Source: a virus. From it: a stretch of DNA of 58,385 nt. How positions within the stretch are numbered: the stretch's first letter is position 1; each line of letters opens with the position of its first letter. The DNA is taken from positions 1 to 58,385 of the IMG/VR virus record IMGVR_UViG_3300048839_001124; one strand, given 5' to 3'. The position numbers were made by a program, and so were the translations under genes. This document shows, in pieces, positions 4,399 through 57,251 of this stretch. The notes under the pieces are model-generated. The model did not search any database. It was not told the origin of the DNA and saw nothing but the letters and a program-made list of their open reading frames with translations.

Positions 4399-5235
4399 AT
4401 GAAAAGGCTTTTGTTATTTTTACTACTATTTTCTTTAAATAGCTTTGGTGCAGAACCAATTAAAATTGTAGTGCTAGATACTGGCTTTAAAGCAAACGCT
4501 AAATACAAAATACCTTTGTGTAAAAACTATCACTATGATGCTACAAACAGCCAAGCTAAAGCCTCAAATATTCCACCTATGGACATTCATGGGCATGGAA
4601 CACATATTGTAGGAGTTATTAATCAGTTTGCTCAAAATTTGCCTCTTACAAAAGTTTTTCCTATGTCAATGAATGTAGAAAATTTAGAAAAAATTAAAAA
4701 TGTCAATCCTACAGGCTATTGTTTTGTTATTGTTAAATATTATAATAATTCTATACAAGGCGAAGAAGGATGGGCTAAAAGTTTAAACTATATAGAAACT
4801 ATACCAGGAAAATTAATTATAAATATTTCTGGTGGAGGCTCAGACCCTATTAATCGCGAAAAAGAATTTGTAAAAAGAACTTTAAAAAAAGGTAACAAAA
4901 TTATATCAGCTATAGGCAATGACAAGCAAAAAGGTTCTTATTATCCAGCGTCTGAGTACGGAGTTACAGCAGTTGGCGCAATGGAAGTTACTTTTTTTGA
5001 AAGAAAAAGTCAAGAAGAAATTTTAATTAGCAAAATTTATATTAATAAAATGCCTGTTTTTGTATATAAATCAAAATATTCTAATTATGGTCATTCAAAA
5101 ATTATTTGGCGTTTTGGCCACTTATATAGTGGTGGTCTAAATGACGATATAGTTCTAATGAGAGGTACTAGTCAAGCTACTGCTATGCAAACTGGTTTAG
5201 AAATAAATAAATTGTTACAAAACAAGGAGAAATGA
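4399..5235 (+). CDS. Secreted subtilisin-like serine protease (S8 family)
   Basis: 278 aa. Residues 1-18 form a signal peptide (KR, a Leu/Phe-rich core, then SFGA as likely cleavage region). The subtilase triad is complete: D27 in VLDTG, H66 in HGHGTH, S258 in RGTSQATA. SGGGSDP and AIGND match the substrate-cleft and oxyanion regions. The mature enzyme, about 260 aa, is a minimal catalytic domain without a long pro-region. It would be exported by the host and act in the periplasm or outside. It sits between polymerase and ssDNA-binding genes, has its own candidate promoter and no ribosome binding site, and looks like an inserted accessory gene. The target is unknown. Lysis, superinfection or host-surface roles are guesses. 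Confidence 0.85.
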   Translation: MKRLLLFLLLFSLNSFGAEPIKIVVLDTGFKANAKYKIPLCKNYHYDATNSQAKASNIPPMDIHGHGTHIVGVINQFAQNLPLTKVFPMSMNVENLEKIKNVNPTGYCFVIVKYYNNSIQGEEGWAKSLNYIETIPGKLIINISGGGSDPINREKEFVKRTLKKGNKIISAIGNDKQKGSYYPASEYGVTAVGAMEVTFFERKSQEEILISKIYINKMPVFVYKSKYSNYGHSKIIWRFGHLYSGGLNDDIVLMRGTSQATAMQTGLEINKLLQNKEK

Positions 5236-11365: not shown

Positions 11366-12212
11366 AGTATTTTTAGAGACTTTATTCAATCCAGGCGAGC
11401 ATATCTACGCTTCACCGTATGGCTATACATCTAAAAGAACAGAAGACGGCAAAGATTGGGAATTTTATTGGCCTAGTATTGAGCAAAAAGATATAGATGA
11501 AACAAATACTCTTTTAGTTTCAATTAATCCATTAAAGGGTGATGTACGTAATGATGATAATGTAACAGCTTATAGAACTTTTTTAGTAGAAATTGATGAT
11601 GGTAAATTATCTGACCAAAAGAAATACATTGATGACAGTGGCTTACCTTACTCATTATGTATATTTAGTGGTAATAAAAGTTTACATTTTGCAGTAACCT
11701 TAGATCATGATTTGCCTTCACATGAATTGTACACTATGCACGCAGAATGGATATTGAATACCTTACCTAAAGCAGACCCATTAACTAAAAATCCATCTAG
11801 GAGTATACGTTTTCCAGGAGTTATACGACCAAACGCTAAAATGCAAGCATTAGTAGAGAATCGTGGAAGAATAAGCTATGATAAGCTTATGGCCTATCTA
11901 AGCAAGTATCCAGAAGCTATGCCTAAACCAGAAGTAGATGAAGATTTTGAAGCTTTGCCTAATAATAAAACAGGCATGGCTAAGTGGGTAGTTCTTGGTT
12001 TAAAGAATGGGTTCGATATGTCTAAAGGTAGGAACGCTAGTTGGTTTGCTATTGCATACGAATTTGGCAAATGTGGCTATGATTTAGAAACTACTTTTGA
12101 AGCCCTTGAGCCAATGTATACCAGAGAAGTAGATTTTAATGAAAGAGAATGGCAAGCTACAATAAGAAATGGGCACACTAAAGCGCTAAAAAAGTATTGG
12201 AGAAAAAAGTGA
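11349..12212 (+). CDS. DNA primase, archaeo-eukaryotic primase (AEP) superfamily
   Basis: 287 aa, ATG 11349 inside the helicase gene. The AEP catalytic set is visible: acidic FLVEIDDG (E81, D83, D84), SGNKSLH at 107-113 matching the GxKSxH-type second motif, and SRSIRFPG at 150-157 for the nucleotide-binding arginine. A C-terminal helical region (about 200-287, with GRNASWFAIAYEFGKCG) resembles PriCT-like extensions found after phage and plasmid AEP domains. It would make primers for the DnaE-like polymerase. Pairing a DnaB helicase with an AEP rather than a DnaG-type primase is typical of some phages and plasmids. No zinc ribbon is seen. Confidence 0.78.
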   Translation: MKETTKVFLETLFNPGEHIYASPYGYTSKRTEDGKDWEFYWPSIEQKDIDETNTLLVSINPLKGDVRNDDNVTAYRTFLVEIDDGKLSDQKKYIDDSGLPYSLCIFSGNKSLHFAVTLDHDLPSHELYTMHAEWILNTLPKADPLTKNPSRSIRFPGVIRPNAKMQALVENRGRISYDKLMAYLSKYPEAMPKPEVDEDFEALPNNKTGMAKWVVLGLKNGFDMSKGRNASWFAIAYEFGKCGYDLETTFEALEPMYTREVDFNEREWQATIRNGHTKALKKYWRKK

Positions 12213-12826
12213 GTAGAATGAGGCGCGATGACATTATGTATTTTATGGACGAAGGTCTATATATACCTACGCGCACAGTTTATATTGGCTCAACTAGCAT
12301 TGAGGATGGAGAAGAATCAGGGGTAGACTATTTGATGGCTGAAAAAGCAATCAAAGCTCTTCACATTCTAGACTCTTCAGCAGCAGACCAGCCTATTACA
12401 ATTATACTAAATAATCCTGGAGGCGATACTGTTCACGGATTAGCTATTTATGATGCTATAAAGCATTGCAGAAACCACATTACTATCAAAGTGTATGGTC
12501 ACGCAATGAGTATGGGTTCTATAATTCTTCAAGCAGCCGATGAGCGATTTATGTCAGAAAATTCAGTTATGATGCTTCATTATGGTACAAATTCGGTTGA
12601 TGGACATACTAAAAATGTCGAACGTTGGGTTGAATGGAGCAAAAAGAGCAGTACGTGGGACGAAGAAATGTTTCTTAAAAGAATTAAAGAAGTAAAGCCA
12701 AGGTTTACTATGAAACAAGTAAAAGAGCTCCTTGAATTTGATAAAATTTTATCAGCAAAAGAAGCCCTAGAGCTTGGTTTAATAGATGGCATCATAGTTG
12801 AAAATGGCGAAATAATTAAGCGATAA
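12209..12826 (+). CDS. clpP: ClpP-like serine peptidase, first of a tandem pair (S14)
   Basis: 205 aa. I choose GTG 12209, which has GGAG at 12199-12202; the frame can be extended to TTG 12197, but that lies within the primase. The S14 triad is intact: Ser about 101 in GHAMSMGS, His about 124 in MMLHYGT and Asp about 178 in EFDKILS, followed by the family end motif ALELGLIDGI. A 20-residue N-terminal extension (SRMRRDD...YIPTRTVY) precedes the ClpP fold. In phages such proteins either process head proteins or act as ClpP homologues. No AAA+ unfoldase gene is in this window. Confidence 0.88.
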   Translation: MSRMRRDDIMYFMDEGLYIPTRTVYIGSTSIEDGEESGVDYLMAEKAIKALHILDSSAADQPITIILNNPGGDTVHGLAIYDAIKHCRNHITIKVYGHAMSMGSIILQAADERFMSENSVMMLHYGTNSVDGHTKNVERWVEWSKKSSTWDEEMFLKRIKEVKPRFTMKQVKELLEFDKILSAKEALELGLIDGIIVENGEIIKR

Positions 12827-12848: not shown

Positions 12849-13490
12849 ATGGCCAAAAGTGCAGATGACATTCTTAAGAAAATTTGGGTTATTGAGTTTA
12901 ATAGTGATTCAGTAAAAGAATTTTATGAACAGTTTAATGAATGGGAAACAAGCCATTTGACAGATACTATTCCTGTGTATGTGAACAGTTACGGTGGACA
13001 AGTTCATGCTCTTATTGCAATGCGTGACCTGATTAAAACCAGCATCAAACCAGTGTCTACCATTTGTGTAGGTAAAGCTATGAGTTGTGGAGCTTCTTTA
13101 TTGGCTGCTGGAGAAAAAGGTATGCGCTTTGCCAGTCCAGATAGCCGTATTCTTATTCATCAAGTATCTTCTATGACTCTTGGTAAAGCTTCAGATATTA
13201 AAGCAGACGCAGCTCAAATCCATGATTTAAACGAAATGATGCTTAGAAATCTAGCAGAAGATACAGGCAACTCAGTTCAGAAGCTTAAAAAAGAAATTAA
13301 GAGTCGAGATAATGCTGACTGGACGCTTACCGCCGAAGAAGCTCTTAAATGGGGCATTATCGACGGCATTGGCATTCCACGCAACATCTGGCCTGAGTAC
13401 AAGACTTCCTTACAGGTTTTCGCAGATGAAAAATCTATGCAAAAAATGGGACTTGACTCAAAACGAGCCAAACCAAAACGTCGAAAATAA
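12849..13490 (+). CDS. clpP: ClpP-like serine peptidase, second of a tandem pair (S14)
   Basis: 213 aa, ATG 12849 with AGGAG at 12837-12841. Ser 79 in GKAMSCGASLL, His 104 in ILIHQVSS and an Asp about 154 in SRDNADW complete the triad, and TAEEALKWGIIDGI closes the domain. It is clearly related to but divergent from the gene 22 bases upstream, with a shorter N-terminus and an added basic tail (SKRAKPKRRK). Two adjacent active-looking ClpP genes could form a mixed ring, as for bacterial ClpP1P2 systems (inference). A candidate promoter follows, so this is probably the end of the helicase-primase-ClpP unit. Confidence 0.88.
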   Translation: MAKSADDILKKIWVIEFNSDSVKEFYEQFNEWETSHLTDTIPVYVNSYGGQVHALIAMRDLIKTSIKPVSTICVGKAMSCGASLLAAGEKGMRFASPDSRILIHQVSSMTLGKASDIKADAAQIHDLNEMMLRNLAEDTGNSVQKLKKEIKSRDNADWTLTAEEALKWGIIDGIGIPRNIWPEYKTSLQVFADEKSMQKMGLDSKRAKPKRRK

Positions 13491-18818: not shown

Positions 18819-19041
18819 ATATAATTTATTATTAGCTGTTAAGCTTTTGCTGTTGGTTCTTAGAAATCCGCATCTGCGTTTCGGTCAAATATTGGTTGTG
18901 TTCGAATATGTAAAGCACACTCGACCAGTAAGGCAAGAAACAGCCGACGCGCACAGGGTAGAGTGGAAAGACGAATTCTACCTTGAGCCGAAAGAACTCT
19001 CTGAGAGAGTATCGAAACGCTGGAATAATATTAAGGCTTAA
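18799..19041 (+). CDS. Small hypothetical protein, end of left plus-strand arm
   Basis: 80 aa, ATG 18799. Residues 8-21 are Leu/Val-rich (YNLLLAVKLLLLVL) and the remainder is charged. The 3' half is noticeably richer in GC than its neighbours. It converges on the endolysin gene with an 11-base overlap of the 3' ends and no visible terminator. Moderate confidence that it is translated. Confidence 0.45.
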   Translation: MTQKRFRYNLLLAVKLLLLVLRNPHLRFGQILVVFEYVKHTRPVRQETADAHRVEWKDEFYLEPKELSERVSKRWNNIKA

Positions 19042-19450
19042 ACCAACGCTTACCCGATGCTGGAGCTACGGTTTGAAAATGACACCAATTACTTGTAGCT
19101 GAAAAATCTTCCATCCACAAGCCAACTTCTTCTAACAAAGTTTCATTCTCAGTACACCATTTTTGTAAATCTTGTTTAGGGTCTGCTATATCTACAGCTT
19201 GGCCAAACAAATGTTTACTCTTTTTTGGAACTTTGGACTCATCAAAAGGTAGCCCTTTTCTTTCAGCTATTTGACGGTAAATTCTTAAATGATCTTCCAT
19301 AGTTCTTAGGCCACTAGTCACTGTCATAGGTTTGCCGTAAGCTTTTCTAATTTTATTTATACGTTCTAATAAAATATTAAGCTCAACTTGAATTTCTTCT
19401 GATTGATCTTCTAATTTTTTACCTTTAAGCAATTCAGACATAGATAGCAT
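19031..19450 (-). CDS. Peptidase M15 family endolysin (L,D- or D,D-carboxypeptidase type)
   Basis: 139 aa. I start it at ATG 19450 because AAGAGG precedes it by six bases and because the upstream extension of the frame lies inside another gene. Zinc-site motifs of M15 peptidases are present: TSGLRT, SKHLFGQAVDIAD (His and Asp ligands), and NWCHFQ with the last His. These enzymes cut peptide cross-links in peptidoglycan. There is no signal peptide, so release to the wall would need a holin; small membrane proteins at 18.3-18.6 kb are candidates. Compact single-domain form without a binding module. Confidence 0.85.
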   Translation of the reverse strand: MLSMSELLKGKKLEDQSEEIQVELNILLERINKIRKAYGKPMTVTSGLRTMEDHLRIYRQIAERKGLPFDESKVPKKSKHLFGQAVDIADPKQDLQKWCTENETLLEEVGLWMEDFSATSNWCHFQTVAPASGKRWFKP

Positions 19451-19481
19451 ATAAACCTCTTCTTTGGGTAAAGATTGAGAA

Positions 19482-19667
19482 TTACTTTGTTTTGGACTTT
19501 TTTGGAAAAATTGGAATAGGTTTTTCAAGATGCTTATTAAGTTCATTTTTACCGTCCTTATCGTGACAGTATCCACACGAAGGACACTTTTTATATCCAA
19601 GAATAGCCAATTTGGGCTCCAACATATCAAGCATATAAGCTATGCAAATCGGACAAATATTATTCAT
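19482..19667 (-). CDS. Small zinc-finger-like protein
   Basis: 61 aa, starting inside the stop region of the endonuclease VII-like gene (ATGAATAA overlap). CPIC near the start and CPSCGYCH about 20 residues later form a plausible CxxC...CxxC zinc ribbon. The tail is Lys/Pro-rich (EKPIPIFPKKSKTK). It ends 31 bases before the endolysin start, so it probably shares that transcript. Function unknown. Confidence 0.55.
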   Translation of the reverse strand: MNNICPICIAYMLDMLEPKLAILGYKKCPSCGYCHDKDGKNELNKHLEKPIPIFPKKSKTK

Positions 19668-33829: not shown

Positions 33830-34067
33830 GCAAGGTGACCCATTAGTAGTAGATAATAAGATGTATTACTTTCAGACTATTCTTCAGGATGGCTCAGTAG
33901 TCATGCTTTCTGAAGATGGGAAGCTCCATTCAGCCAATATGTATACTGTACAAGTAGTCAAAAGAGACCAAAAAGAAAATATCCTTAGAGAGTTTGTTGG
34001 CTACGCCGCCGAAAATCAGGTTGCTCCAACAGACTTAGTTAATTTAGCCTTGAAAGAGTTGCAGTGA
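33819..34067 (+). CDS. Small beta-barrel-like protein, paralogue of 33253-33456
   Basis: 82 aa. I choose ATG 33819 (AAGG nine bases before) because the protein then begins MKLKQGD, aligned with MRLKVGD of the paralogue; ATG 33810 is also in frame. Residues 1-50 match the paralogue's barrel; the rest is a helical extension (ENILREFVGYAAENQ...LVNLALKELQ). Its stop overlaps the next gene (GTGAAC start region). The pair flanks the zinc-finger gene. Function unknown. Confidence 0.6.
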   Translation: MKLKQGDPLVVDNKMYYFQTILQDGSVVMLSEDGKLHSANMYTVQVVKRDQKENILREFVGYAAENQVAPTDLVNLALKELQ

Positions 34068-35404
34068 ACAAAAAGTATATTTTTGTATACAAAACCACAA
34101 ATTTAAAATCTAATAGGTTTTATATTGGTGTTCACGAAACTAATAATTTAGAGGACGGTTATTTAGGTAGTGGCGTTATTCTTGAAAGGGCAATTAAAAA
34201 GCATGGAAAAGAAAACTTTAAAAGAGAAATTTTAAGCTTTTTTAATACAAAAGAAGAAGCTTATAAACATGAAGCTCTTTTAATTACTCCTGAACTTGTT
34301 AAAAGTGGCGACTGTTACAATATAGCCCTTGGTGGAGCAGGCGGATATACCATTGCAGGCTATTCTGAAGAAGAAAAAATAATTCATGAACGAAAAAGAA
34401 ATAAGGCCTTTAAAGATAGTGGGGCAAATCAAGGCACTAGAAATTTCATGTATGGAAAAAGCCCAAAAGAAGTTTATTCTCCAGAAGTTTATGAGCAATG
34501 GAGATTAAAAAATATAGAAAATAAAAAAGGTGAATTAAATGGTATGTATGGCATCGCACCTTGGCTTCATCCATCTGTTAATGAAAGAACCCAAAATATT
34601 TGGTCAAACGCTGATGTGCTTTATAATATTTGGAAAAATAATAAAGTTAAAGGACATAAATTAGCATCATTAAATAATGATGAATATAATTCTTGTTACA
34701 GTAGAATTGCAGCTAAATTTTTTGAAGATTGGATACCACAAAACGACAGTGAATGGATTAATTTTAAAAGAAAAATAGAAGGCAAAATTCCAATCTTTTT
34801 TACTTCCGATCTTCATTTATTTCACGAAAATGTAATTAAATATAGTAATCGGCCCTTTAAAAATTGTGAAGAAATGCATGAATCTCTCATAAAAAGATGG
34901 AACGCTACAGTTCCCAGTTACGGAATAGTTTATGTACTTGGAGATGTTGGGTTTGCTAAAGGTGATTTAATTAAATCAGTGCTTTCTAGAATGAATGGTA
35001 CTAAAATTTTAATTTTAGGAAATCACGATGGCTCAGTAGGAAAAATGTACGATTCTGGATTTACTTTAGTATTAAATGGAACAACATTATATTTAGGCAA
35101 TCATAGATTAGAACTAACACATTGTCCACCCAGAGGTGTGTGGAGAGAAAATACTGCTGGTATGCGCGGTAGTGATGGTACAGAAAATTGGCATGGCGAA
35201 AGACGACATCATAAATTTTCTAAGCAGTATGACCCCAATAGTTTTTGGCTGCATGGCCACACTCACAAAAAACCAACAGAAAGAACCTTAAACAGAATGT
35301 TTGATGTTGGTATAGATGCTAATCATTATACACCTGTTAGTATGGGCACTATAGAATCTTGGATAGCTTTGATGTCTAAATCTAACGGTCAGAAGCCTGA
35401 ATAG
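34064..35404 (+). CDS. GIY-YIG homing endonuclease fused in frame to calcineurin-like phosphoesterase
   Basis: 446 aa, GTG start at 34064. Residues 4-95 form a GIY-YIG nuclease: YIFVYKTTNL, FYIGVHET, DGYLGSG, AIKKHGKENF and the KHEALLI glutamate. Residues 120-175 carry NUMOD-type DNA-binding motifs (GTRNFMYGKS, GELNGMYGI). From about 243 a complete metallophosphoesterase follows: SDLHLFHENV, RPF, LGDVGF, LGNHD, THCP and HGHTH, ending VGIDANHYTPVS. The phosphoesterase half begins exactly where free-standing phage versions begin, and no in-frame ATG, GTG or TTG lies near the junction, so it can be made only as a fusion. The 3' end overlaps the converging structural gene by 23 bases. Confidence 0.8.
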   Translation: MNKKYIFVYKTTNLKSNRFYIGVHETNNLEDGYLGSGVILERAIKKHGKENFKREILSFFNTKEEAYKHEALLITPELVKSGDCYNIALGGAGGYTIAGYSEEEKIIHERKRNKAFKDSGANQGTRNFMYGKSPKEVYSPEVYEQWRLKNIENKKGELNGMYGIAPWLHPSVNERTQNIWSNADVLYNIWKNNKVKGHKLASLNNDEYNSCYSRIAAKFFEDWIPQNDSEWINFKRKIEGKIPIFFTSDLHLFHENVIKYSNRPFKNCEEMHESLIKRWNATVPSYGIVYVLGDVGFAKGDLIKSVLSRMNGTKILILGNHDGSVGKMYDSGFTLVLNGTTLYLGNHRLELTHCPPRGVWRENTAGMRGSDGTENWHGERRHHKFSKQYDPNSFWLHGHTHKKPTERTLNRMFDVGIDANHYTPVSMGTIESWIALMSKSNGQKPE

Positions 35405-44027: not shown

Positions 44028-44684
44028 TTACCTATTATGTTTCTTTATATTTAAACTTCTAGGTAATATCTGTAAATTCCATGGTACATGGAGACCGCAT
44101 GAGTTTTTGCCTTGCAGAGGCATAATATGGTCAACCTGTAATGGATCATTAGGGTCAGATAGCCATTGCAACTCTTTACATAATGTATAAAATTCTTCAA
44201 TTTCTAATAATTGTTCTTTAGTTAACCAATTTGGGGTTGCTTTAAGTTTTGAAGCTCTTCTTTTAGCTTCATGAGCGTTTCTTTTGTCTTGATTGCTTTT
44301 GCTCCACAAAGCCTTGTCTTTTTTGTCTTTTTCAAGGTTTTTTAAACGCCACAAACGTCTAGTTTCTTTTTCTTTTTCAATATTTTCTTGATACCTATAT
44401 TTTCGACCTTTATTCCACAGTTCTTTATTAAGGATATGATTTCTTTTGTTATTTTCTAATCTTTGTTCTCTATTTTTCCAATATCTTTGTATAGATGCTT
44501 CTCTTTCTTTTTCAATATTAGCCAATCTATAAGATCTTATTTGAGCAAGTCTAAATACTTTATTAGTATTATATTTTGCTTTTATACATTCTTTACAAGA
44601 ACCTTGTAAATTGTCTGGATTTTTAGCGTTTTTAGAAAAATAAATAAAATCTTTTGATTTTAAACATTTTTTACACAATTTCAT
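44028..44684 (-). CDS. HNH homing endonuclease
   Basis: 218 aa. N-terminal zinc finger CKKC...CKEC (residues 4-33), a long Arg/Lys/Glu-rich coiled region (45-150, repeated RRLWRLKN-like units) and a C-terminal HNH domain: LQVDHIMPLQGK, GLHVPWNLQILPRSLNIKKHN. Free-standing homing endonuclease of the type that inserts between phage structural genes, here between the LysM/gp25 fusion and the J-like gene. No ribosome binding site; CGATAATATAAT lies 2 bases before the ATG, so a leaderless message is possible. Ends shortly before promoter L1. Confidence 0.85.
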   Translation of the reverse strand: MKLCKKCLKSKDFIYFSKNAKNPDNLQGSCKECIKAKYNTNKVFRLAQIRSYRLANIEKEREASIQRYWKNREQRLENNKRNHILNKELWNKGRKYRYQENIEKEKETRRLWRLKNLEKDKKDKALWSKSNQDKRNAHEAKRRASKLKATPNWLTKEQLLEIEEFYTLCKELQWLSDPNDPLQVDHIMPLQGKNSCGLHVPWNLQILPRSLNIKKHNR

Positions 44685-44706: not shown

Positions 44707-47307
44707 TTATTGGGACAAAAATGTGATTGGTATAACTCCGAGGCGATTAGCCAAAACCACTTTAATGGAAATCTCTAAAACTGAGCCATTTAGGTTAATT
44801 TCAAGTTTATCAATAGTTTCAAAGCGTGGGTCTTTAAGAATTAAGCCGCCTATATCTTTTAATAGATTGTTTACATCTATATCTGCTATATTGCGACCTG
44901 GAGTGATACCTATGCCAAAAGTAGGGTCTGTAAGGACACTGCCTCTTTCTGTAAAAAGCTTAATTTTTAATGCTTGAATAAGGTTAGTTAATCCAGCAGC
45001 AAGACGCATATCTCCTTGATTATTAATAGCAATATCAAAATCTTCAGTTAAAAGAATATCGATTTTTGATAAACCTACAATAGTAGAAACTTCTATTCCT
45101 GGTACTTGTCTGGCATAGTCATCAGGCTCAGCAGGTAAATCGGTAGGTATATAAATCTGATCTTGGCTATTAACTGTACCTGGAGTGTAGCCTCTTAAAG
45201 AAGCAGAATCAGACAAAAGCAATACATCTAAATCTGGTAAGCCATCGACAGTTATCAAATAATTGGTGCTTGACCCAATTTGTTCAATAGCCGTAATTTT
45301 ACGACTAAATGCTGGAACGGTTAAGCTAGAAAATTGAATTCTTTGACCAGCAAATAGACCTTCATTAGTGTTTACAATTACTTGGCGACCGTCTCCATTG
45401 GATAATAGTGGATAGCTAAAGCCTTCTTCATCTATATATGGGTCTCTTAAAGCATTTAAAGTGGCTATTTCTATCCACCTATTAACGTCTCCTAGATATC
45501 TTAAAGAAATTTCTTCTAATGATTTGCCGAAAGGTACAGGCACTAATATTTTAGCAGAACTATTGGCTTCAAAAGGTATACCAGCTTCAGCAGCATAATC
45601 TCCAACATACTGTAGAGGATTTACTCTTCTATTTTCATCTACAGCACGAGTGGCTGTAAGAATATCCATTTGAGTAACAGCTTCTATCATAGCAGCCAAT
45701 ACTTCGTTTTCTTCTACTGTCATTTCTGTTAATCTAACTTTTGGAGCGGCGCGGCCTAAAATGGAATTTAAAGTAGCATCATTAGCGCCAAATTCGTTAG
45801 AAATATCTAGTGCTAAATTATAAATAGTAGAACGTATATCTCTTAAATCATCAATATTATAGTTTCGTACTCTATCTATTTCATTTTCAAAACTTAGTCT
45901 TTGTTCATCCGTTAAAGGCACTTCATCCATATCTAATTTTTCAAATAAAGTAAAAGCACTTTCTGGATTATTGAACATATTGTAGGCTGGGTCTGATTCT
46001 ATATTATTACTTAAAGCCTTACTATTAGCCTGAACGCTAGACAATGATCTAGACTCAAACTTTCCAGAAGTCTTTACTAAGCCAAGAGTTAAGGTCTTAA
46101 TTAAACCATCACCCAAATTAGCTAAACCTTCAGAAGTGTTCTGAATAGCCTCAGAAATGCCAGACTGGTAGTCTTTAACAATTTGTCTAGGCAACTCAGA
46201 CGCCGCTTGAGCTACTCCGCCAAGGTCTTTAACAAAAAGAGAAGCTTCTCTAAGAGCATTAAGTGGTTTTTGAAAGTCAGAACGAACCGCTTTAATCAAA
46301 TTAAGAGAATTTTGAGCAGCAATGCGAGCCTGTCTAATACCTTCAAGAATATTTTTGTAAGTATTAGTGTCTAAGCCTGGTATTTGCGGAGGTATCCCAG
46401 ACTCTGTTTTTTCTAAATTTATGCGCTTCCAAGCTCTAAGTTGAAGATTATACATTTCTTCGGTCGGCTTGTTAGCGTTTTTATATATATTAAGAGATAC
46501 TGGAGTAACTACAAAGCTTTGATTATCTTTTGGAACATCAAAAACTAATCTCCAACCACTATTTCTTGGGTCTTTTTTAGCTATGGCGTATTGTTCAAGA
46601 AATTGATCTAAAAGCTTTGCGTTATAATAGCCAGTTTCGGTTAAAAATTCTGGTTCAGCAGGCTTTGGAGTGTTATAGGGTGATTGGCCTGTAAAAGCTT
46701 TTACTGTTTTTCTGACAGAATCTGCTAATCTTCCAAGGGCGGCTGTAGTACCACTTATTAACGACTGAATGCTTGTTTCTGTAGCTGGTCGATCAAATTG
46801 AGGTCTGGTTGGCCAAATGCCAAAAGTACCTTGCATACTAATAGTTTTAAATCTCAATCCACCATGCTCTTCGATTATGCCTCTAAGAGTAGGAGTTGTT
46901 GTTATAGCATAGTCAGATACAAAGCTAATCTGCTGTGGAGTTATAGGCAATCGGAATTCCCATTTAGATTGATACTGAACTATAATATTGCCACTATCTA
47001 CTTGAGACCTATACTCTATAGCATTTGCGCCTGAATCGGCTCCTGGCCCAACTATTTTGTTATTGTTTTTAACATCAATAACTAAAAGCCTATATGGATA
47101 AATTCTATTCCATCTGCGACCATCAATCTCCGCTGGAGCAAAAAAAGCATCTTTTTGGTTTTTCCAAGGCAGCTCTCCACCAAAAGCGATAGTTTTTGAT
47201 GATGGGTCAGCACCTACGCCTATGGCTTTCTTAATAGCAGAAGAAGCTTCTTTGCCTGCTTGATTTAACTTTTTACCTAAACTATCTAAAAGACTTTCTT
47301 TACCCAT
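44707..47307 (-). CDS. Baseplate protein: N-terminal baseplate domain, LysM-like and gp25-like fusion
   Basis: 866 aa. Residues about 75-170 hold a contractile-tail baseplate pattern (FRLPITPQQISF, TTTPTLRGIIEEHGG, ISMQGTFG). The middle is helical. Residues about 575-640 look LysM/gp53-like (VPFGKSLEEISLRYLGDVNRWIEIA). Residues 740-866 match the gp25/W lysozyme-like wedge family: DFDIAINNQGDM, LTNLIQALKIKL, TERGSVLTDPTFG. Three functions that are separate genes in T4 or Mu seem combined. It would sit at the inner baseplate near the tail tube. It has no ribosome binding site and begins at the end of motif L3. Confidence 0.75.
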   Translation of the reverse strand: MGKESLLDSLGKKLNQAGKEASSAIKKAIGVGADPSSKTIAFGGELPWKNQKDAFFAPAEIDGRRWNRIYPYRLLVIDVKNNNKIVGPGADSGANAIEYRSQVDSGNIIVQYQSKWEFRLPITPQQISFVSDYAITTTPTLRGIIEEHGGLRFKTISMQGTFGIWPTRPQFDRPATETSIQSLISGTTAALGRLADSVRKTVKAFTGQSPYNTPKPAEPEFLTETGYYNAKLLDQFLEQYAIAKKDPRNSGWRLVFDVPKDNQSFVVTPVSLNIYKNANKPTEEMYNLQLRAWKRINLEKTESGIPPQIPGLDTNTYKNILEGIRQARIAAQNSLNLIKAVRSDFQKPLNALREASLFVKDLGGVAQAASELPRQIVKDYQSGISEAIQNTSEGLANLGDGLIKTLTLGLVKTSGKFESRSLSSVQANSKALSNNIESDPAYNMFNNPESAFTLFEKLDMDEVPLTDEQRLSFENEIDRVRNYNIDDLRDIRSTIYNLALDISNEFGANDATLNSILGRAAPKVRLTEMTVEENEVLAAMIEAVTQMDILTATRAVDENRRVNPLQYVGDYAAEAGIPFEANSSAKILVPVPFGKSLEEISLRYLGDVNRWIEIATLNALRDPYIDEEGFSYPLLSNGDGRQVIVNTNEGLFAGQRIQFSSLTVPAFSRKITAIEQIGSSTNYLITVDGLPDLDVLLLSDSASLRGYTPGTVNSQDQIYIPTDLPAEPDDYARQVPGIEVSTIVGLSKIDILLTEDFDIAINNQGDMRLAAGLTNLIQALKIKLFTERGSVLTDPTFGIGITPGRNIADIDVNNLLKDIGGLILKDPRFETIDKLEINLNGSVLEISIKVVLANRLGVIPITFLSQ

Positions 47308-47320
47308 ATATAAAAGATTA
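47308..47320 (-). promoter_or_regulatory. Candidate minus-strand promoter (L3), abutting the start codon
   Basis: TAATCTTTTATAT on the minus strand directly touches the ATG of the 866-aa baseplate gene, with CTG before it as in L4. No Shine-Dalgarno lies between. It occupies a 49-base divergent gap shared with the plus-strand peptidase gene. Confidence 0.45.
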
Positions 47321-47356
47321 CAGTTTACCTAAAAGCCTTGATATTAATTCTTTTCT

Positions 47357-47962
47357 ATGAAAAGGTTGATAATTTTTATATTCATATCGTTATTAATAAG
47401 TTTAAAACCATCAAAGGTAAATTTAGATAAAACAAATAATGATCTTTTTCCATATATTATAGAATTTTCTAAAAACACTAATAATTATATATCTTTAGAA
47501 GAAATAAATAAATATTTAGATTTTGAATATGACACTCTTGGCTACACTAGTAATGTTTTAGAGGAAAAGGGCACCATAGGCCAATGTATGATACCCTTTT
47601 TTGAAACTAAAGGCAAAATAACTATAGACCCTAACTATTGGGAAAAAGCTTCTGAATATAGTAAAAAAGGCCTTATTTTGCATGAAATGGCTCATTGTGC
47701 TTGCAGCGTTGGGCATACAGTAGAAATTTATGAATTAGAAACTCATTGGCTTATAAAATTTTTGCATAAATTTGGAATAAAAACAGCTAGAGACCGAGTT
47801 CATTATAGAGATGATGGTTGCGCTAAAAGCATTATGTTTCCTTATATACCTAGCAATTATTGTATAGAAAAGCATTGGAATGAATACGTAGAAGAAGTAA
47901 ATAAAAAATGCCGACCTTGGTCTTTAACTTCAGATAATATTTTTAATAGGCCTAAAAAATAA
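47357..47962 (+). CDS. Secreted zincin-like metallopeptidase
   Basis: 201 aa. Residues 1-17 are a signal peptide or anchor (KRLIIFIFISLLISL). The zinc motif HEMAH (H109, E110, H113) is followed by GH with a third His at 120, and SIMFPYIP at about 157-164 resembles the Met-turn of metzincins, though the spacing to the third His is one residue longer than the classical HExxHxxGxxH. Six cysteines in the mature part could be disulfides. It is the only plus-strand gene inside a 21-kb minus-strand tail operon, flanked by a 1-base gap to the gene on its right, so it is an inserted cargo gene. No ribosome binding site seen. Substrate unknown. Confidence 0.68.
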   Translation: MKRLIIFIFISLLISLKPSKVNLDKTNNDLFPYIIEFSKNTNNYISLEEINKYLDFEYDTLGYTSNVLEEKGTIGQCMIPFFETKGKITIDPNYWEKASEYSKKGLILHEMAHCACSVGHTVEIYELETHWLIKFLHKFGIKTARDRVHYRDDGCAKSIMFPYIPSNYCIEKHWNEYVEEVNKKCRPWSLTSDNIFNRPKK

Positions 47963-47963
47963 A

Positions 47964-49280
47964 TTAAAGAAGCTTATATACTCTACCAAGCTCAGATTCT
48001 CTGTATGACTGAGAAATTTGTTTATCAACAGTTATCATAGTGCCGTTTATAGCTTGAATAGTTAAAGGTATTTCAGGCTGAGTTTCAGTTATTAAATAAA
48101 CTTGATTGCCAACAGCCAACCCTGTTACATCTTTTAAATGAAGAGTGTTGGTTCCATTAGCTGGAGCTTTCATTAAAGAAACTGTCATTACACCTTGATA
48201 AACAATGATGGCATCTTCTTTATTTTTTTTAAATTGATTTAATGCTTCTATACTTTTATCTGCACTAATAAGGGCTGATAAACTTCCACCCATTGCATGA
48301 AGACGAAGATTTATAGCATAAGCCCTATCTAAATAAAAGCCTGAACCGCCTGTGATGTCGCCTGTAATTGAGCTTTGAGTTACAGTGCCCAAATAACCAG
48401 ACACTTCTGCTATTCTGGTTGTAACTTGAGAAGTTCTATTAGTTATAATTGTTTTAAATGCGTTAAGTTGAGTAGTATAACCCTTAGTAGGAGCTAATAG
48501 AGCTGCATTGTATCCATTAAAGCCAGCACATGTTGTTTGACCATGGCTTGTATTAAAGTTTGGATACGCAAGCCAAACAGCTATGCCAGACAAAGCGGTA
48601 TTTATGCTAGTTTGTTCTGTATTTTTTGCTGTTATACGGCCTGCATTCGTGTCTACAGCCACTATGTCGGCTAAAGCAGTTAAAGAACTATTTAAATTAG
48701 TTTGCCATTGAGTAGCTTTTGTTACCAAAGTTGTCATAGCGGTCTGAACGGTAGCATAAGCAGCAACTACATCTGGAGTGCCTGCTGTACAAGATTGGCC
48801 AGTAGTTCTTTGAATTAAAGTTGCTGCTTCAAGAATAGCTATTTGAGCATTCATATCTGTTATGAGTTGTTGTTCATTAGGACTTACTAAACCATAAACT
48901 TCTAATTTTTGCTTTCCTATGCCGTAGCTACCAAAGAAAGGACCAAAAAATTTCCATGCTCCATCTGGGACTGAAGGCAATGGAACATTTGATTCATTTG
49001 GAAATAAAAAGTTTCCAATCTTTCTTTTAGCTGCGTCTTGTTGAACGGTTTCTGTTAACAAGCTATGAAGATTTCCATTTTTTAAACCAAGTTCTACTTG
49101 ATATGGATCAATAAGAACAGTAACTCTATCTACTAAACCTTTGTTGGCTAAATCTTTTTTTTCTAATTCAGTACGCGCTATCAAAATTTGAGCTCTATTA
49201 GCCTCAATTTGAGCTATCTCTGCTGGAGCAGCAGCAAAAGCCTTAGATATTGCTATGCGATCATCTTGAGATAGTGCCAT
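47964..49280 (-). CDS. Virion structural protein, tail operon
   Basis: 438 aa. N-terminal 60 residues are helical (AAAPAEIAQIEANRAQILIARTELEKK). The centre (about 130-340) is a long Ala/Thr/Gln-rich helical bundle, and the last 60 residues form a beta domain (LHLKDVTGLAVGNQVYLITE, ITVDKQISQ), reminiscent of the TNF-like or wedge termini of baseplate proteins. Two Cys in TGQSCTAG and TTCAGF. Unrecognised family; baseplate or tail-fibre-hinge role by position. The ribosome binding site is weak. Confidence 0.6.
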   Translation of the reverse strand: MALSQDDRIAISKAFAAAPAEIAQIEANRAQILIARTELEKKDLANKGLVDRVTVLIDPYQVELGLKNGNLHSLLTETVQQDAAKRKIGNFLFPNESNVPLPSVPDGAWKFFGPFFGSYGIGKQKLEVYGLVSPNEQQLITDMNAQIAILEAATLIQRTTGQSCTAGTPDVVAAYATVQTAMTTLVTKATQWQTNLNSSLTALADIVAVDTNAGRITAKNTEQTSINTALSGIAVWLAYPNFNTSHGQTTCAGFNGYNAALLAPTKGYTTQLNAFKTIITNRTSQVTTRIAEVSGYLGTVTQSSITGDITGGSGFYLDRAYAINLRLHAMGGSLSALISADKSIEALNQFKKNKEDAIIVYQGVMTVSLMKAPANGTNTLHLKDVTGLAVGNQVYLITETQPEIPLTIQAINGTMITVDKQISQSYRESELGRVYKLL

Positions 49281-49281
49281 A

Positions 49282-49518
49282 CTAATTTAAACTAATTTCC
49301 TTTACTTCTAAAGTGGCTAATTTCCACTCTATTACTGCTATTTCTTTATCTTCTGACTTTGGTAAGCCTTCTAATTTAGCTTTTAATTTTTTTTCTATAT
49401 TAGATCTAACCATTTCAGCTTCTTCTATAGTAAATCTATGAATATCGTTAATGCTGATATGGCTTTTACCACACAGCACAACGTAATTTCTAAATTCATC
49501 CATAGCGTCATCGGACAT
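49282..49518 (-). CDS. Small helical hypothetical protein
   Basis: 78 aa. I start it at ATG 49518, sharing the last A of the CPBP gene's TAA (TAATG), rather than the 30-base longer frame. Acidic/basic helical pattern (FTIEEAEMVRSNIEKKLKAKL) ending in beta (EWKLATLEVKEISLN). It leaves a 1-base gap to the next gene. Coupled translation likely; no known family. Confidence 0.6.
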   Translation of the reverse strand: MSDDAMDEFRNYVVLCGKSHISINDIHRFTIEEAEMVRSNIEKKLKAKLEGLPKSEDKEIAVIEWKLATLEVKEISLN

Positions 49519-50066
49519 TATATACCCATTAATTGAAAAGCTAGCCAAAAAGCCATATACATAGTAAAATCAAATAAAACATGGAGCATCATCATAGAGC
49601 CTAAGCCATGCTTCTTACCTACATTATAAGAAATAATAGGATAAACAAATACGGTTAATCCAACCCAACCTTGATATAAATGACCTAATGTAAAGTGAGC
49701 TATAAATAAAGAAAATACTGTATAGAAAGTGGCTTTGGCTATTTTCTTTCGTTTACTTTCATTCATTTTTTCTAAATACAAAGATATAATCATAAATGGT
49801 AAAACGTAAAAACAATCTTCCCACCACGCCGCCAATAAATGATTGGCTGGTATCATGTCAAATACTTGAATAGTTTTTGCCCAAGCGTCTGGGAAATATT
49901 TTGGCAAAGCCCACGCAGCAACGGCTGTTTTAGCAAAATTGATTGCAGTAATTATTGCACCAAAAAGAATAACAAACTTTCTATCGACTTTTACTAAGTC
50001 AGGATACTTTATGTAAGCCAAAACAAACATTAAAAAAGCTATTATAATTTGTAAATCGTGAATCAT
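49518..50066 (-). CDS. CPBP-type intramembrane metalloprotease-like protein
   Basis: 182 aa, AGGAG before ATG and ATGA overlap with the HNH gene. About five to six hydrophobic helices cover nearly the whole length. Motifs of the CPBP (Abi, M79) family: WWED near residue 80 for the acidic motif 1 (the usual EExxxR arginine is missing), FTLGH (motif 2 FxxxH) and HVLFD (motif 3 HxxxD/N). Members cleave prenylated or membrane substrates, and some are immunity or bacteriocin-related. Its place within tail structural genes is unusual for a membrane enzyme. The lost arginine means catalysis is uncertain. Confidence 0.6.
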   Translation of the reverse strand: MIHDLQIIIAFLMFVLAYIKYPDLVKVDRKFVILFGAIITAINFAKTAVAAWALPKYFPDAWAKTIQVFDMIPANHLLAAWWEDCFYVLPFMIISLYLEKMNESKRKKIAKATFYTVFSLFIAHFTLGHLYQGWVGLTVFVYPIISYNVGKKHGLGSMMMLHVLFDFTMYMAFWLAFQLMGI

Positions 50067-50782
50067 AGTTTCTCCTGAACATATAAGAGTATTTTCTTTA
50101 TATGCTCTATAAAATTTTCTTTAGTGTAACTGCTTTTCATTTCATTACACCTTCCACAACAAGGAGTTGAGTTTTCAATAGTATAGCTTTTAGTACTATC
50201 TATTCTATCTATTCCTTTGCTGCTTTCTATACCACAATAAGTACAGGGCTTATTTATAAGATTGCTAAATTCTTGAAAAGAAAGCAACATTTTTATACCC
50301 CTGCCTAGGCGACCTCTTCTATTACAGTCATGCTTGTATCTAGAATATATACCCTTATCAGAGGATTTATATTTTTTTCTAATACTTACATTAGTTAAGT
50401 ATTTGGTATCTTTTTTGCATTCTTTGCAGATCTTTCCTTGAAAATTCAATTGATTCCAAGTAGTTTGGGTAATATGATTATTTTCACATTTTAAATTTAT
50501 CTTTTCAAAAGTTCCTTTATAGGGCGTTAATAGAGTGTAGCCCTTTTCGCTAATAAGAGTTTCTATTTCTTCATTTGTTTTCTTTCTAGTAGGGTTACAA
50601 ATATTACATCTAACCCCTTTCCCTTTTCTGGAAAAATATTTAAAAGCAATGAAGCAATTATGGTTTTTGGGACAAATCATAGAAAGCTTTTCAAGCTGGC
50701 TATGATAGGTTGTAGACAAAAGCTTATAGTTTTCTTTTTCTATATATGTTTTTACCGATTCGTAATCGTGTTTTTTAGGCAT
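50063..50782 (-). CDS. HNH-type homing endonuclease with zinc fingers
   Basis: 239 aa. Two N-terminal repeats of a treble-clef-like unit (MICPKNHNCFIAF...CNICNP; LKCENNHITQ...CKECKK) for DNA binding precede a C-terminal nuclease core: PCTYCG, GIDRIDSTKSYTIEN, PCCGRCNEMKSS. This is the GIDR-type HNH core common in phage homing enzymes. It lies between the spike gene and the CPBP gene, overlapping the latter. No ribosome binding site; its ATG directly follows L5. Confidence 0.8.
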   Translation of the reverse strand: MPKKHDYESVKTYIEKENYKLLSTTYHSQLEKLSMICPKNHNCFIAFKYFSRKGKGVRCNICNPTRKKTNEEIETLISEKGYTLLTPYKGTFEKINLKCENNHITQTTWNQLNFQGKICKECKKDTKYLTNVSIRKKYKSSDKGIYSRYKHDCNRRGRLGRGIKMLLSFQEFSNLINKPCTYCGIESSKGIDRIDSTKSYTIENSTPCCGRCNEMKSSYTKENFIEHIKKILLYVQEKL

Positions 50783-56141: not shown

Positions 56142-56909
56142 CTAGTTTAATCCTATCAAATATTTACCAAAACGTTTTAAGCCAATTTTTGGTATTCTAC
56201 CACATAAAGTGCCAAAAGGTATCTCAGTAAATAAGGAAACTTGTCTTAGACCTAAAATAATATGTATTTTGTTATTTTCTTTAATTATATATTTTTTTGT
56301 TTTGGCTAATATCATTTTTTGTATAGCACTTGAATCTGCTTGTTTGCCTTTATTCCATGGCGCTTTGCCTAGTTTGGATTGGCTAATTTTAATTCGAGCC
56401 TCTTCTGAATGTGTTTTCCCATACATTGGATGCTTTGAACCAGCTAATAGTCCTTTGTGAGATTTACTCATATTTTCAAGATGTTCTTTTGAAAACTTTT
56501 TACCATAATTAGGGTTGCCTTTGCCAGAAAATCTAATAGACCTAGCTTTTAGCTCTTTTTTAGTATATTTTCTAGGATTTCTTTTCTGCGCTTCACTCAT
56601 TCGTTTTCTTGCGTCTTCAGAATAGGTAGGTCTGCTTCCACCGCTTTTTAAGTTATATCCGTTTGGCGCAATAGTATTAAGTTCATTTATATATTTAATT
56701 TCCATAGTGTTTAATTCGGATATATTTTCAACTTTAGCTAATTCTTGTATCTCAAAATTTTCTATACCATACTTACTGATAGCAGATTTTATAGCTTTGC
56801 ATCCTGAAGAGGGTGACAGATGATGGCGCAATCGATCTTCTAAGGACTGAATAGTCTGTCCTACATAAGCTTTGCCATTAATTTTGTTACGAATCATATA
56901 AATTGTCAC
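56142..56909 (-). CDS. GIY-YIG homing endonuclease
   Basis: 255 aa. I start it at GTG 56909, which has AGAGG seven bases before it; the longer frame to 57017 would swallow promoter L4 and the divergent gene's start. VTIYMIRNKINGKAYVGQT is the GIY-YIG signature at residues 1-19, followed by RLRHHLSPSS, AISKYGIENFEIQE and a glutamate in MEIKYINEL. Residues 95-200 carry NUMOD-type motifs (GKGNPNYGKKFS, GSKHPMYGKTHS) and a C-terminal helix-turn-helix-like part. Lies immediately upstream of the tape measure, 2 bases away. Confidence 0.86.
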   Translation of the reverse strand: MTIYMIRNKINGKAYVGQTIQSLEDRLRHHLSPSSGCKAIKSAISKYGIENFEIQELAKVENISELNTMEIKYINELNTIAPNGYNLKSGGSRPTYSEDARKRMSEAQKRNPRKYTKKELKARSIRFSGKGNPNYGKKFSKEHLENMSKSHKGLLAGSKHPMYGKTHSEEARIKISQSKLGKAPWNKGKQADSSAIQKMILAKTKKYIIKENNKIHIILGLRQVSLFTEIPFGTLCGRIPKIGLKRFGKYLIGLN

Positions 56910-56920
56910 TGTCTGTCCTC

Positions 56921-56934
56921 TAATATAAAGATTA
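56921..56934 (-). promoter_or_regulatory. Candidate late promoter (L4) for GIY-YIG and tail genes
   Basis: TAATCTTTATATTA on the minus strand, preceded by CTG as in L3, lies 12 bases before the GTG start with a ribosome binding site (AGAGG) between. It heads the transcript that would run through the tape measure, hub and spike. Confidence 0.5.
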
Positions 56935-56982
56935 CAGAACGGCATAATCCCATATATTCGTATAAGATATCGAAAAAATATG

Positions 56983-56994
56983 CGATAATATAAT
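56983..56994 (+). promoter_or_regulatory. Candidate -10 element, CGATAATATAAT, before 57000 gene
   Basis: Contains TATAAT at 56989-56994, five bases before ATG 57000, with no ribosome binding site. The 12-base word is identical to that before the HNH gene at 44684 on the other strand. A matching -35 is not obvious (GATATC or TCGAAA lie at a suitable distance). Confidence 0.4.
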
Positions 56995-56999
56995 AAATT

Positions 57000-57251
57000 A
57001 TGGCAAAACCAAGTCAAAAAATGAAAGATATGATTGTTTCAAATAACTTATATCTATCTGAAAACATTGAACAAATGGCAAATGACTTTGAACAAGCATA
57101 TACCTTCAATCAAGAGCCTCCTCAAAATATAGTAGATATTATGTTTGAGGTTTTTGTGTCTGGCATATTGGTAGGTAGAGGAGAAAGATACTCTTTTACT
57201 GGATGCGCCACTAGTAGATGTTCAAGCTGTACTGGTTCATGTGGAAAATAA
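57000..57251 (+). CDS. Small protein with Cys-rich C-terminus
   Basis: 83 aa. Mostly helical and acidic (NIEQMANDFEQAYTF) with a Cys-rich end GCATSRCSSCTGSCGK that could bind metal or an iron-sulfur centre. Its TAA shares a base with the ATG of the phosphoesterase (TAATG), suggesting coupled translation and perhaps a partner relation. No family recognised. Confidence 0.6.
   Translation: MAKPSQKMKDMIVSNNLYLSENIEQMANDFEQAYTFNQEPPQNIVDIMFEVFVSGILVGRGERYSFTGCATSRCSSCTGSCGK

Follow-up and report, generated by a model that had tools for sequence, protein, structure and literature searches.

How does a single gene persist backward among the virion genes of a phage, and what might its product, a predicted exported protease, bring to that phage? 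The question is raised by a virus record of 58,385 bases (the window, i.e., the whole stretch of DNA analysed), in which an ATG-started open reading frame of 201 aa, P0001, occupies positions 47357-47962 of the plus strand. It is flanked on both sides by minus-strand genes: the gene of an 866-aa baseplate protein (44707-47307), with 49 nt between the two divergent start codons, and the gene of a 438-aa tail-region protein without a Pfam match (47964-49280), with 1 nt between the two convergent stops. The minus-strand block extends from 35382 to 56139 (20.8 kb) and holds mostly tail and baseplate genes, in agreement with the initial annotation, which had placed the gene on the strand opposite to about 21 kb of structural genes. 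The N-terminal residues of P0001 are MKRLIIFIFISLLISL..., followed by LILHEMAHCACSVGHT and later by DGCAKSIMFPY; its layout comprises a hydrophobic N-terminal helix, a region around G75-x-C77, the stretch KITIDPNYW, LILHEMAHCACSVGH, an insert, DGCAKSIMFPY and C-terminal helices.

Membership of a phage zincin family

A degenerate pattern composed from P0001 itself, HE-[LMIF]-[GA]-HC followed by DGC x4 M, has one match in the window and none in any of 100 shuffles. Viral contigs were scanned with the degenerate pattern HE-[LMIF]-[GA]-HC-x5-H plus a Met-turn-like triplet, which gave 61 loci with 54 motif-bearing ORFs. Of these, 44 were kept for a profile, the ORFs dropped being a fragment (L016), two identical copies and seven that appeared unrelated (L015, L055, L058, L018, L040, L047 and L060); 38 of the 44 proteins together with P0001 make up the 39 rows of alignment A1. 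Run against the 377 ORFs of the window, the 44-protein phage profile scores P0001 at 90.8 bits (E 1.7e-27), with the runner-up ORF at E 0.3. Because the search pattern had itself selected the motif, a masking control was run, and with the HExxH stretch and SIM masked P0001 keeps 44.6 bits (E 2.4e-13), with the strongest match over residues 1-107. The homology of P0001 to the phage zincin family is far above chance, and the ORF with HEMAH, a third His and SIMFP that had been read at 47357-47962 is confirmed as a member of this family by the profile and its masked control.

Existing family models capture P0001 less well. Pfam PF18894 (PhageMetallopep) is matched by 29 of the 39 A1 members at E <= 0.01; P0001 is similar to it around the HExxH helix (residues 88-115 only), yet its 19.2 bits fall under the cut-off of 23.7. 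PF10263 (SprT-like) reaches 14.6 bits, under its cut-off of 25.6. Nine of the 39 A1 members match PHROGs 'transposase' and eight match PHROGs 'metallo-protease', and a PHROGs search with P0001 alone gave weak matches only. With P0001 as the query, phmmer against the PDB returned chance-level matches only, tblastn in phages returned nothing under E 0.05, single-protein scans of viral and genome contigs found no relative, and PADLOC and NCBIfam gave no match at E <= 0.01; the phage proteins of this family likewise have no suitable NCBIfam model. A literature search, reaching few subscription journals, found no published account of this zincin family or of its antisense arrangement.

A conserved slot beside the baseplate gene

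A pattern with Cys-x-Cys and DGC at the spacing of P0001 had zero matches in viral contigs, and a looser, larger-gap pattern gave 16 loci, 8 of which hold relatives with a P0001-like insert (from the third His to DGC; in P0001 residues 121-152, 47717-47812, with predicted helices at 124-138 and 144-149). All eight records (G003 and G004 appear to represent one phage) contain a homologue of the 866-aa baseplate protein, 42-46% identical, with the zincin upstream within about 1.8 kb on the opposite strand. The 438-aa homologue lies beyond the zincin in five of the eight; two contigs end earlier, and G007, in whose zincin HExxH and Met-turn are 34 residues apart, gives no match. Pieced together, the gene order is 803-618-353-438-zincin (reversed)-866-2180-537-139. 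The same arrangement, with long-insert zincins, stands on one contig each of a Saprospiraceae assembly (G013) and a Bdellovibrionales assembly (G019).

The baseplate protein, which serves as the synteny anchor, has an 86% identical homologue in the record of L002 and a 30% identical one in Myxococcus phage Mx1. A search with the baseplate gene, meant to make the selection of loci less dependent on the zincin, used an 8-row alignment whose rows all come from zincin-bearing phages; it found 96 relatives, mostly on contigs of uncultivated viruses, of which the best 80 loci were kept, and the zincin shares given below may be overestimated. Within these best 80 of 96, 49 loci have an opposite-strand zincin no more than 3 kb upstream, as do 47 of the 64 loci with more than 1500 nt upstream and 38 of the 51 eligible clusters (90% baseplate identity). 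When the seven contigs known from the zincin search are left out, a slot zincin is present in 42 of the 73 remaining loci and in 32 of the 45 clusters. Nearly all zincin-family ORFs in these loci (49/50) sit in the slot. In 48 of these 49, HExxH and the Met-turn are 38-57 residues apart, and the last one (L209) is interrupted by the locus end. Pairwise distances between zincins correlate with those between baseplate proteins (Spearman 0.65), a value reached by 0 of 2000 permutations (best permuted 0.27), and the zincin is co-inherited with the baseplate gene. The backward zincin is not a chance insertion, and its arrangement is conserved across much of the phage clade; the word 'lone' in the initial annotation does not survive the finding of the same antisense gene in 49 loci. 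In the same set, 13 of the 51 clusters have no slot zincin, and the zincin is therefore not essential to this baseplate.

In some zincin-less phages the slot is taken by other antisense ORFs, among those listed at 7318-9840 of L189, 2470-2835 of L214 and 9414-9761 of L243, and it may serve more generally to accommodate cargo on the opposite strand. A search for the baseplate gene located it in one of 368 genomes from the phylum of a Bacteriovoracaceae assembly and also in one Saprospiraceae assembly; it was in 0 of 395 genomes sampled from the phylum of Runella, an uninformative sample. The nearest isolated relative is Mx1, which has a contractile tail and 169,621 bp (PMC10720576), and in which no zincin match was found.

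When bacterial and archaeal genomes were searched with the long-insert alignment, 156 relatives emerged. The best 80 carry titles of Bacteroidota (e.g., Saprospiraceae, Spirosoma, Runella) or Bdellovibrionota (Bacteriovoracaceae, Bdellovibrionales), with two exceptions titled 'bacterium' and 'Deltaproteobacteria'. These best 80 of 156 loci hold 81 ORFs, and in 67 of them the distance from the start of HExxH to the Met-turn is 22-24 residues, i.e., that of the short forms (L077-L155); six others lack a matched Met-turn, and the rest have distances of 14, 26, 27, 44 (L076) and 111. L084 and L146 show 22-23 residues, and L102 and L149 have no matched Met-turn at the normal distance. The short forms, mostly with lipoprotein-like N-termini, have HExxHC, the third His and the Met-turn in common with P0001, whereas the long insert is missing from them; among the best 80 of 156 genome loci it was seen in L076 only. 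P0001 is one of a zincin family that is also present as lipoproteins in Bacteroidota and Bdellovibrionota.

Predicted fold and active site

AlphaFold2 models of P0001 built from 39 sequences (pLDDT 80.9, pTM 0.74) and from 59 sequences (pLDDT 81.9, pTM 0.76) both place HExxH on a helix (residues 100-116), as expected for the proposed zincin active site. In the PDB, Foldseek found no match to the P0001 model at E <= 0.001, selecase coming closest (E 0.0099); the alignment profile also matches snake-venom metzincins and selecase weakly in sequence (best E 0.0022). The sole viral match to the first model in BFVD at E <= 0.001 is A0A6J7X1G0 (E 1.1e-4, query TM-score 0.45), an uncharacterised phage protein of similar predicted structure with 19% identity to P0001. 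Structural realignment (VIA) of the PDB candidates puts matrix metalloproteinases (MMPs) and snapalysin in the lead for the first model (Z <= 9.3; snapalysin 8.5) and gives MMP-11 a Z of 9.7 over 124 residues at 3.3 Å for the second. Across the top realigned solved structures, MMPs and snapalysin, Z is 8-9.7 over 112-126 residues, a middling range that, as the tool itself warns, may reflect merely a common arrangement. Since a middling Z alone is insufficient, the assignment takes fold, HExxH, third His and Met-turn together, and these support P0001 as a metzincin-like zinc peptidase on the predicted models. The modelled protein would share all four of these features with the MMPs and snapalysin, and it differs from them in an extra Cys before the third His, a long insert before the Met-turn and an identity of only 9-14%.

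The segment HEMAHCACSVGH (47681-47716) carries the putative zinc ligands H109, H113 and H120 and the putative catalytic E110, all four of which are invariant in 39 of 39 representatives (38 cluster representatives plus P0001), as are C155 and C169. The Met-turn SIMFP, S158-P162 (47828-47842), can be read from the sequence of P0001, and M160 and P162 are each present in 38 of the 39. The metzincin-like peptidase of the initial annotation is thus upheld by the profile, the predicted fold and the conserved active site. The third-ligand spacing of P0001 is HExxHx6H, one residue over HExxHxxGxxH and with no Gly at that position; in the profile alignment, the extra residue between HExxH and the third His is C114. 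This spacing recurs in 37 of the 38 cluster representatives found by the profile, that of L197 being one residue longer still, so the 'unusual spacing' noted at the outset holds relative to HExxHxxGxxH and not within the family, in which HExxHx6H is normal. The long distance from HExxH to the Met-turn results from the insert that defines the subfamily. H148, just before DGC..SIM, was considered as the third zinc ligand and rejected, H120 being invariant in the long-insert alignments and H148 not. In the sole informative pair, dN is 0.21 and dS 2.19 (dN/dS about 0.09), indicating purifying selection with dS near saturation.

N-terminus, cysteines and export

The hydrophobic N-terminal helix of P0001, residues 1-16 (47357-47404), shows neither a lipobox nor a visible cleavage site. 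Many phage relatives have a lipobox-like Cys after a hydrophobic N-terminus; the lipobox column holds Cys in 34 of the 39 representatives, whereas P0001, with Leu16 at that column, is among the five without, a count made by alignment column and including L180, which by eye has LSC one step off the column. Judged by its sequence, the N-terminus is likely a signal peptide, as had been annotated, and the helix could instead be an uncleaved membrane anchor.

P0001 has exactly six cysteines, C77, C114, C116, C155, C169 and C185. C77 (47585-47587) and C114 (47696-47698) are together present in 36 and together absent in 3 of the 39 representatives (Fisher 1e-4, relatedness ignored), and the three without them are mutually just 39-47% identical in the baseplate protein. 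C116 (47702-47704) and C185 (47909-47911) are together present in 28 and together absent in 11 (Fisher 6e-10, relatedness ignored). C155 (47819-47821) and C169 (47861-47863) are both invariant in the 39 representatives; among the 39 rows of A1, 11 have both, 26 have neither and two have the second alone. Mixed pairings that were tested, e.g., C77 with C116, showed no association. Because two pairs co-vary perfectly and the third is invariant, the six cysteines probably form three disulfides, C77/C114, C116/C185 and C155/C169, and from these we infer that P0001 folds outside the cytoplasm.

Promoter-like elements around the slot

The motifs described here were found post hoc by k-mer search and then checked on zincin-less loci and other genes, and the case for promoters and a unit boundary rests on this comparison across loci, the window by itself giving no statistical support. 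AAGATT is present in all 26 intergenic regions of 20-400 nt (shuffles 1.5) and TGATAT in 20 of them (shuffles 1.6); these shuffles, like those for TGnTAT below, preserve base composition alone.

Read toward the baseplate gene, AAGATT is (C)AATCTT, which in the window lies at 47314-47319 on the minus strand, 6 nt before the baseplate gene start. It is found within 75 nt of the baseplate start in 35 of 38 zincin clusters and in all 14 zincin-less ones (for one of these, L175, the upstream sequence is too short to tell), 49 of 52 in total, a count that leaves out, from 56 rows, four window sites chosen for holding the motif. In the window, AATCTT precedes 5 of 23 minus-strand starts and, within 45 nt, 0 of 32 plus-strand starts. 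AATCTT(TATA) sites stand on the minus strand of the window at 47314, 43961, 32866, 50782 and in the 56894 region, before likely late units; the start at 56894 was revised after the motif was seen. Counted within 130 nt 5' of each homologue match in relatives, AATCTT is frequent before the 2180-aa gene (38/59; other strand 4), the baseplate gene (32/51; other strand 8), the 803-aa gene (13/27; other strand 2) and the 438-aa gene (12/27; other strand 4), and is rare before the 537-aa (2/55), 353-aa (1/37), 618-aa (3/33), 139-aa (4/48) and 182-aa (1/21) genes. Seen at likely first genes more than at inner genes, AATCTT is a candidate late-type promoter that would mark the starts of transcription units and be recognised by an unknown factor.

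On the zincin side, the extended -10-like element TGATATTAA (47339-47347, plus strand) ends 9 nt before the ATG and matches TATAAT at 4 of 6 positions only. TGnTAT lies within 45 nt before the zincin start in 23 of the 39 representatives, in 20 of them 5-9 nt before it; the shuffle expectation is a mean of 3.0 with a maximum of 9 in 1000 shuffles, and the count in the baseplate direction is 2 of 38. For relatives, the start was taken by rule as the first Met lying 60 or more residues ahead of HExxH, and some of these distances may err. TGnTAT is missing before the chosen start in 16 of the 39; in 14 of these 16 the distance to the baseplate start exceeds 130 nt, and there a different antisense ORF may precede the zincin; it also occurs near the baseplate start, on the same strand, in 5 of the 14 clusters where no zincin was found. 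TGnTAT resembles an extended -10 element, from which a near-leaderless mRNA would result. A plain sigma-70 scan of the window region gave 2 sites against 6.8 in shuffles, and no terminator was found there. Conserved promoter-like elements on both sides suggest that the zincin slot is a transcription-unit boundary, and the zincin may form a separate unit between phage genes, as a moron-like cargo gene would. The zincin is probably not truly inside a tail operon, where the initial annotation had put it.

Proposed role and alternatives

We tentatively propose, as a reading that may well be right while falling short of probable, that the zincin is a resident, separately expressed envelope protease of a fixed slot whose likeliest benefit is superinfection exclusion. 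It would be a cargo gene long resident in a clade of large phages, with Mx1 as their nearest isolated relative, and its product a Sec-exported metzincin-like zinc peptidase with three disulfides formed in the periplasm, a lipoprotein in most relatives and, in the window phage, secreted or held by its N-terminal helix. At the slot, presumably the border of two tail transcription units, the baseplate gene would start from its own late-type promoter and the zincin would be transcribed oppositely and almost leaderless; since its apparent extended -10 promoter is its own and points the other way, host polymerase would probably make it early or independently of the virion genes. Action on the envelope of the infected cell is expected because the protein appears to be exported, long kept, encoded opposite to the virion genes and served by an apparent promoter of its own. 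In the envelope, the zincin would cleave one or more surface proteins, and with the receptor removed or blocked, sister phages and released virions would not rebind.

The closest parallel in layout is phage T5, in whose annotation oad (-) and lpp (+) diverge across 79 nt and both strands carry promoters. Llp is an exclusion lipoprotein that blocks the receptor FhuA from the periplasm, according to PMC9586334. Both lpp and the zincin gene encode exported proteins (predicted, for the zincin) and diverge from a tail gene across a short intergenic region at the edge of a structural block. However, Llp is not an enzyme and its gene adjoins that of the receptor-binding protein, and the likeness proposed is one of layout rather than homology. 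Against exclusion, the zincin's neighbour encodes a baseplate protein, unlike T5's receptor-binding protein, and P0001, unlike Llp, has no lipobox.

The main rival is an aid to lysis and release, in which the protease would degrade envelope proteins so that the endolysin (M15, 19031-19630) and the virions pass, like Listeria Mtz; we regard it as possible but less than likely. The literature searched yielded one clear functional case of a phage-derived secreted metzincin, from Listeria, and the sole published function found for such an enzyme is lysis sensitisation: Mtz, acting with its partner Tim, promotes phage lysis and the release of virions, according to PMC8235301. Mtz and P0001 are alike in being secreted phage-derived metzincins with a Met-turn (for P0001, by prediction), and Mtz differs in its HExxHxxGxxH/D motif (HExxHx6H in P0001), its cI/cro-like locus, its lipoprotein partner and its Gram-positive host. 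A lysis role would also sit well with the subtilase of the window phage, which has a signal-like N-terminus and matches in 12 of 20 related records. It fits poorly with a zincin that runs opposite to the virion genes without their AATCTT (0/32 plus-strand starts), and no TIMP-like lipoprotein partner stood out among the adjoining genes. The opposite orientation and the type of promoter lead us to place exclusion slightly ahead of the lysis aid.

The gene could also be moron-like cargo, a bacterial envelope protease gene kept to feed or protect the infected cell. The short-form relatives in Bacteroidota and Bdellovibrionota genomes, most with lipoprotein-like starts, and the other antisense ORFs in the slot of some zincin-less phages (L189, L214, L243) speak for this; we nevertheless consider it unlikely, as the long insert is confined to L076 among the best 80 of 156 genome loci, both L076 and the G019 zincin adjoin the same baseplate gene, baseplate co-inheritance speaks against repeated recent pick-up and long residence against recent insertion. 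A virion-associated protease, borne on the baseplate and opening the envelope at entry, would account for the tight genetic linkage to the baseplate gene. Virions assemble in the cytoplasm, whereas the signal sequence or lipobox and the co-varying cysteines suggest export; together with the opposite strand, the missing late-type element and the 13 of 51 clusters without a zincin, this makes such a protease very improbable. Only its odd orientation would mark the ORF as spurious or non-coding, a reading refuted by sequence conservation (full-length homology, catalytic residues in 39/39 and a low dN/dS in one informative pair) to the point of being practically excluded.

A bolder version of the exclusion reading, which we hold to be doubtful, is an undescribed clade-wide system, in which a disulfide-stapled, long-insert metzincin of a dedicated antisense slot in the tail region, expressed from a host-type near-leaderless promoter, would achieve catalytic superinfection exclusion in the envelope and be paired with a co-conserved secreted subtilase. 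If true, these phages would make a periplasmic protease pair, metzincin plus subtilase. With a family, a conserved active site, a slot, candidate promoters and a predicted location in hand, the benefit that an envelope protease brings to a phage can now be tested directly. The locus also suggests how a backward gene may persist among virion genes, namely where two transcription units meet and their promoters diverge, as in the T5 annotation.

Other genes of the window

Three putative extracytoplasmic peptidases had been assigned to this phage, the zincin, a subtilase and an M15 enzyme. The first two are retained as such; the M15 enzyme, which matches PF08291, is endolysin-like and by eye has no export signal. 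The subtilase (4399-5235, plus strand) matches PF00082 at E 5.5e-10, and a perfect TGGTATAAT stands 7 nt before its ATG. It had no match in the phages collection; several of the related phage records in which it was matched have, by eye, TTGACA-like and -10-like boxes near the start.

A 182-aa tail-region membrane protein (49518-50066, minus strand), with homologues in relatives, shows ED, GH and HxxxD motifs by eye and is possibly a further phage protease, judging from these motifs. Its homologue in L210 reaches 21.8 bits against the Rce1/CPBP family of intramembrane proteases, slightly short of the 22.4 required, that in L216 matches at E 6.9, and the window protein has no match. Two adjacent ClpP-like genes lie on the plus strand at 12197-12826 and 12849-13490, the first matching PF00574 at E 1.3e-29 and the second recognised by eye. 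At 34064-35404 (plus strand), a GIY-YIG endonuclease domain (residues 3-75) and a calcineurin-like phosphoesterase (242-402) share a single frame. Genes resembling HNH or GIY-YIG homing endonucleases are, by eye, dispersed among the tail genes, at 44028-44684, 50063-50782 (minus strand) and 56142-57017 (minus strand).
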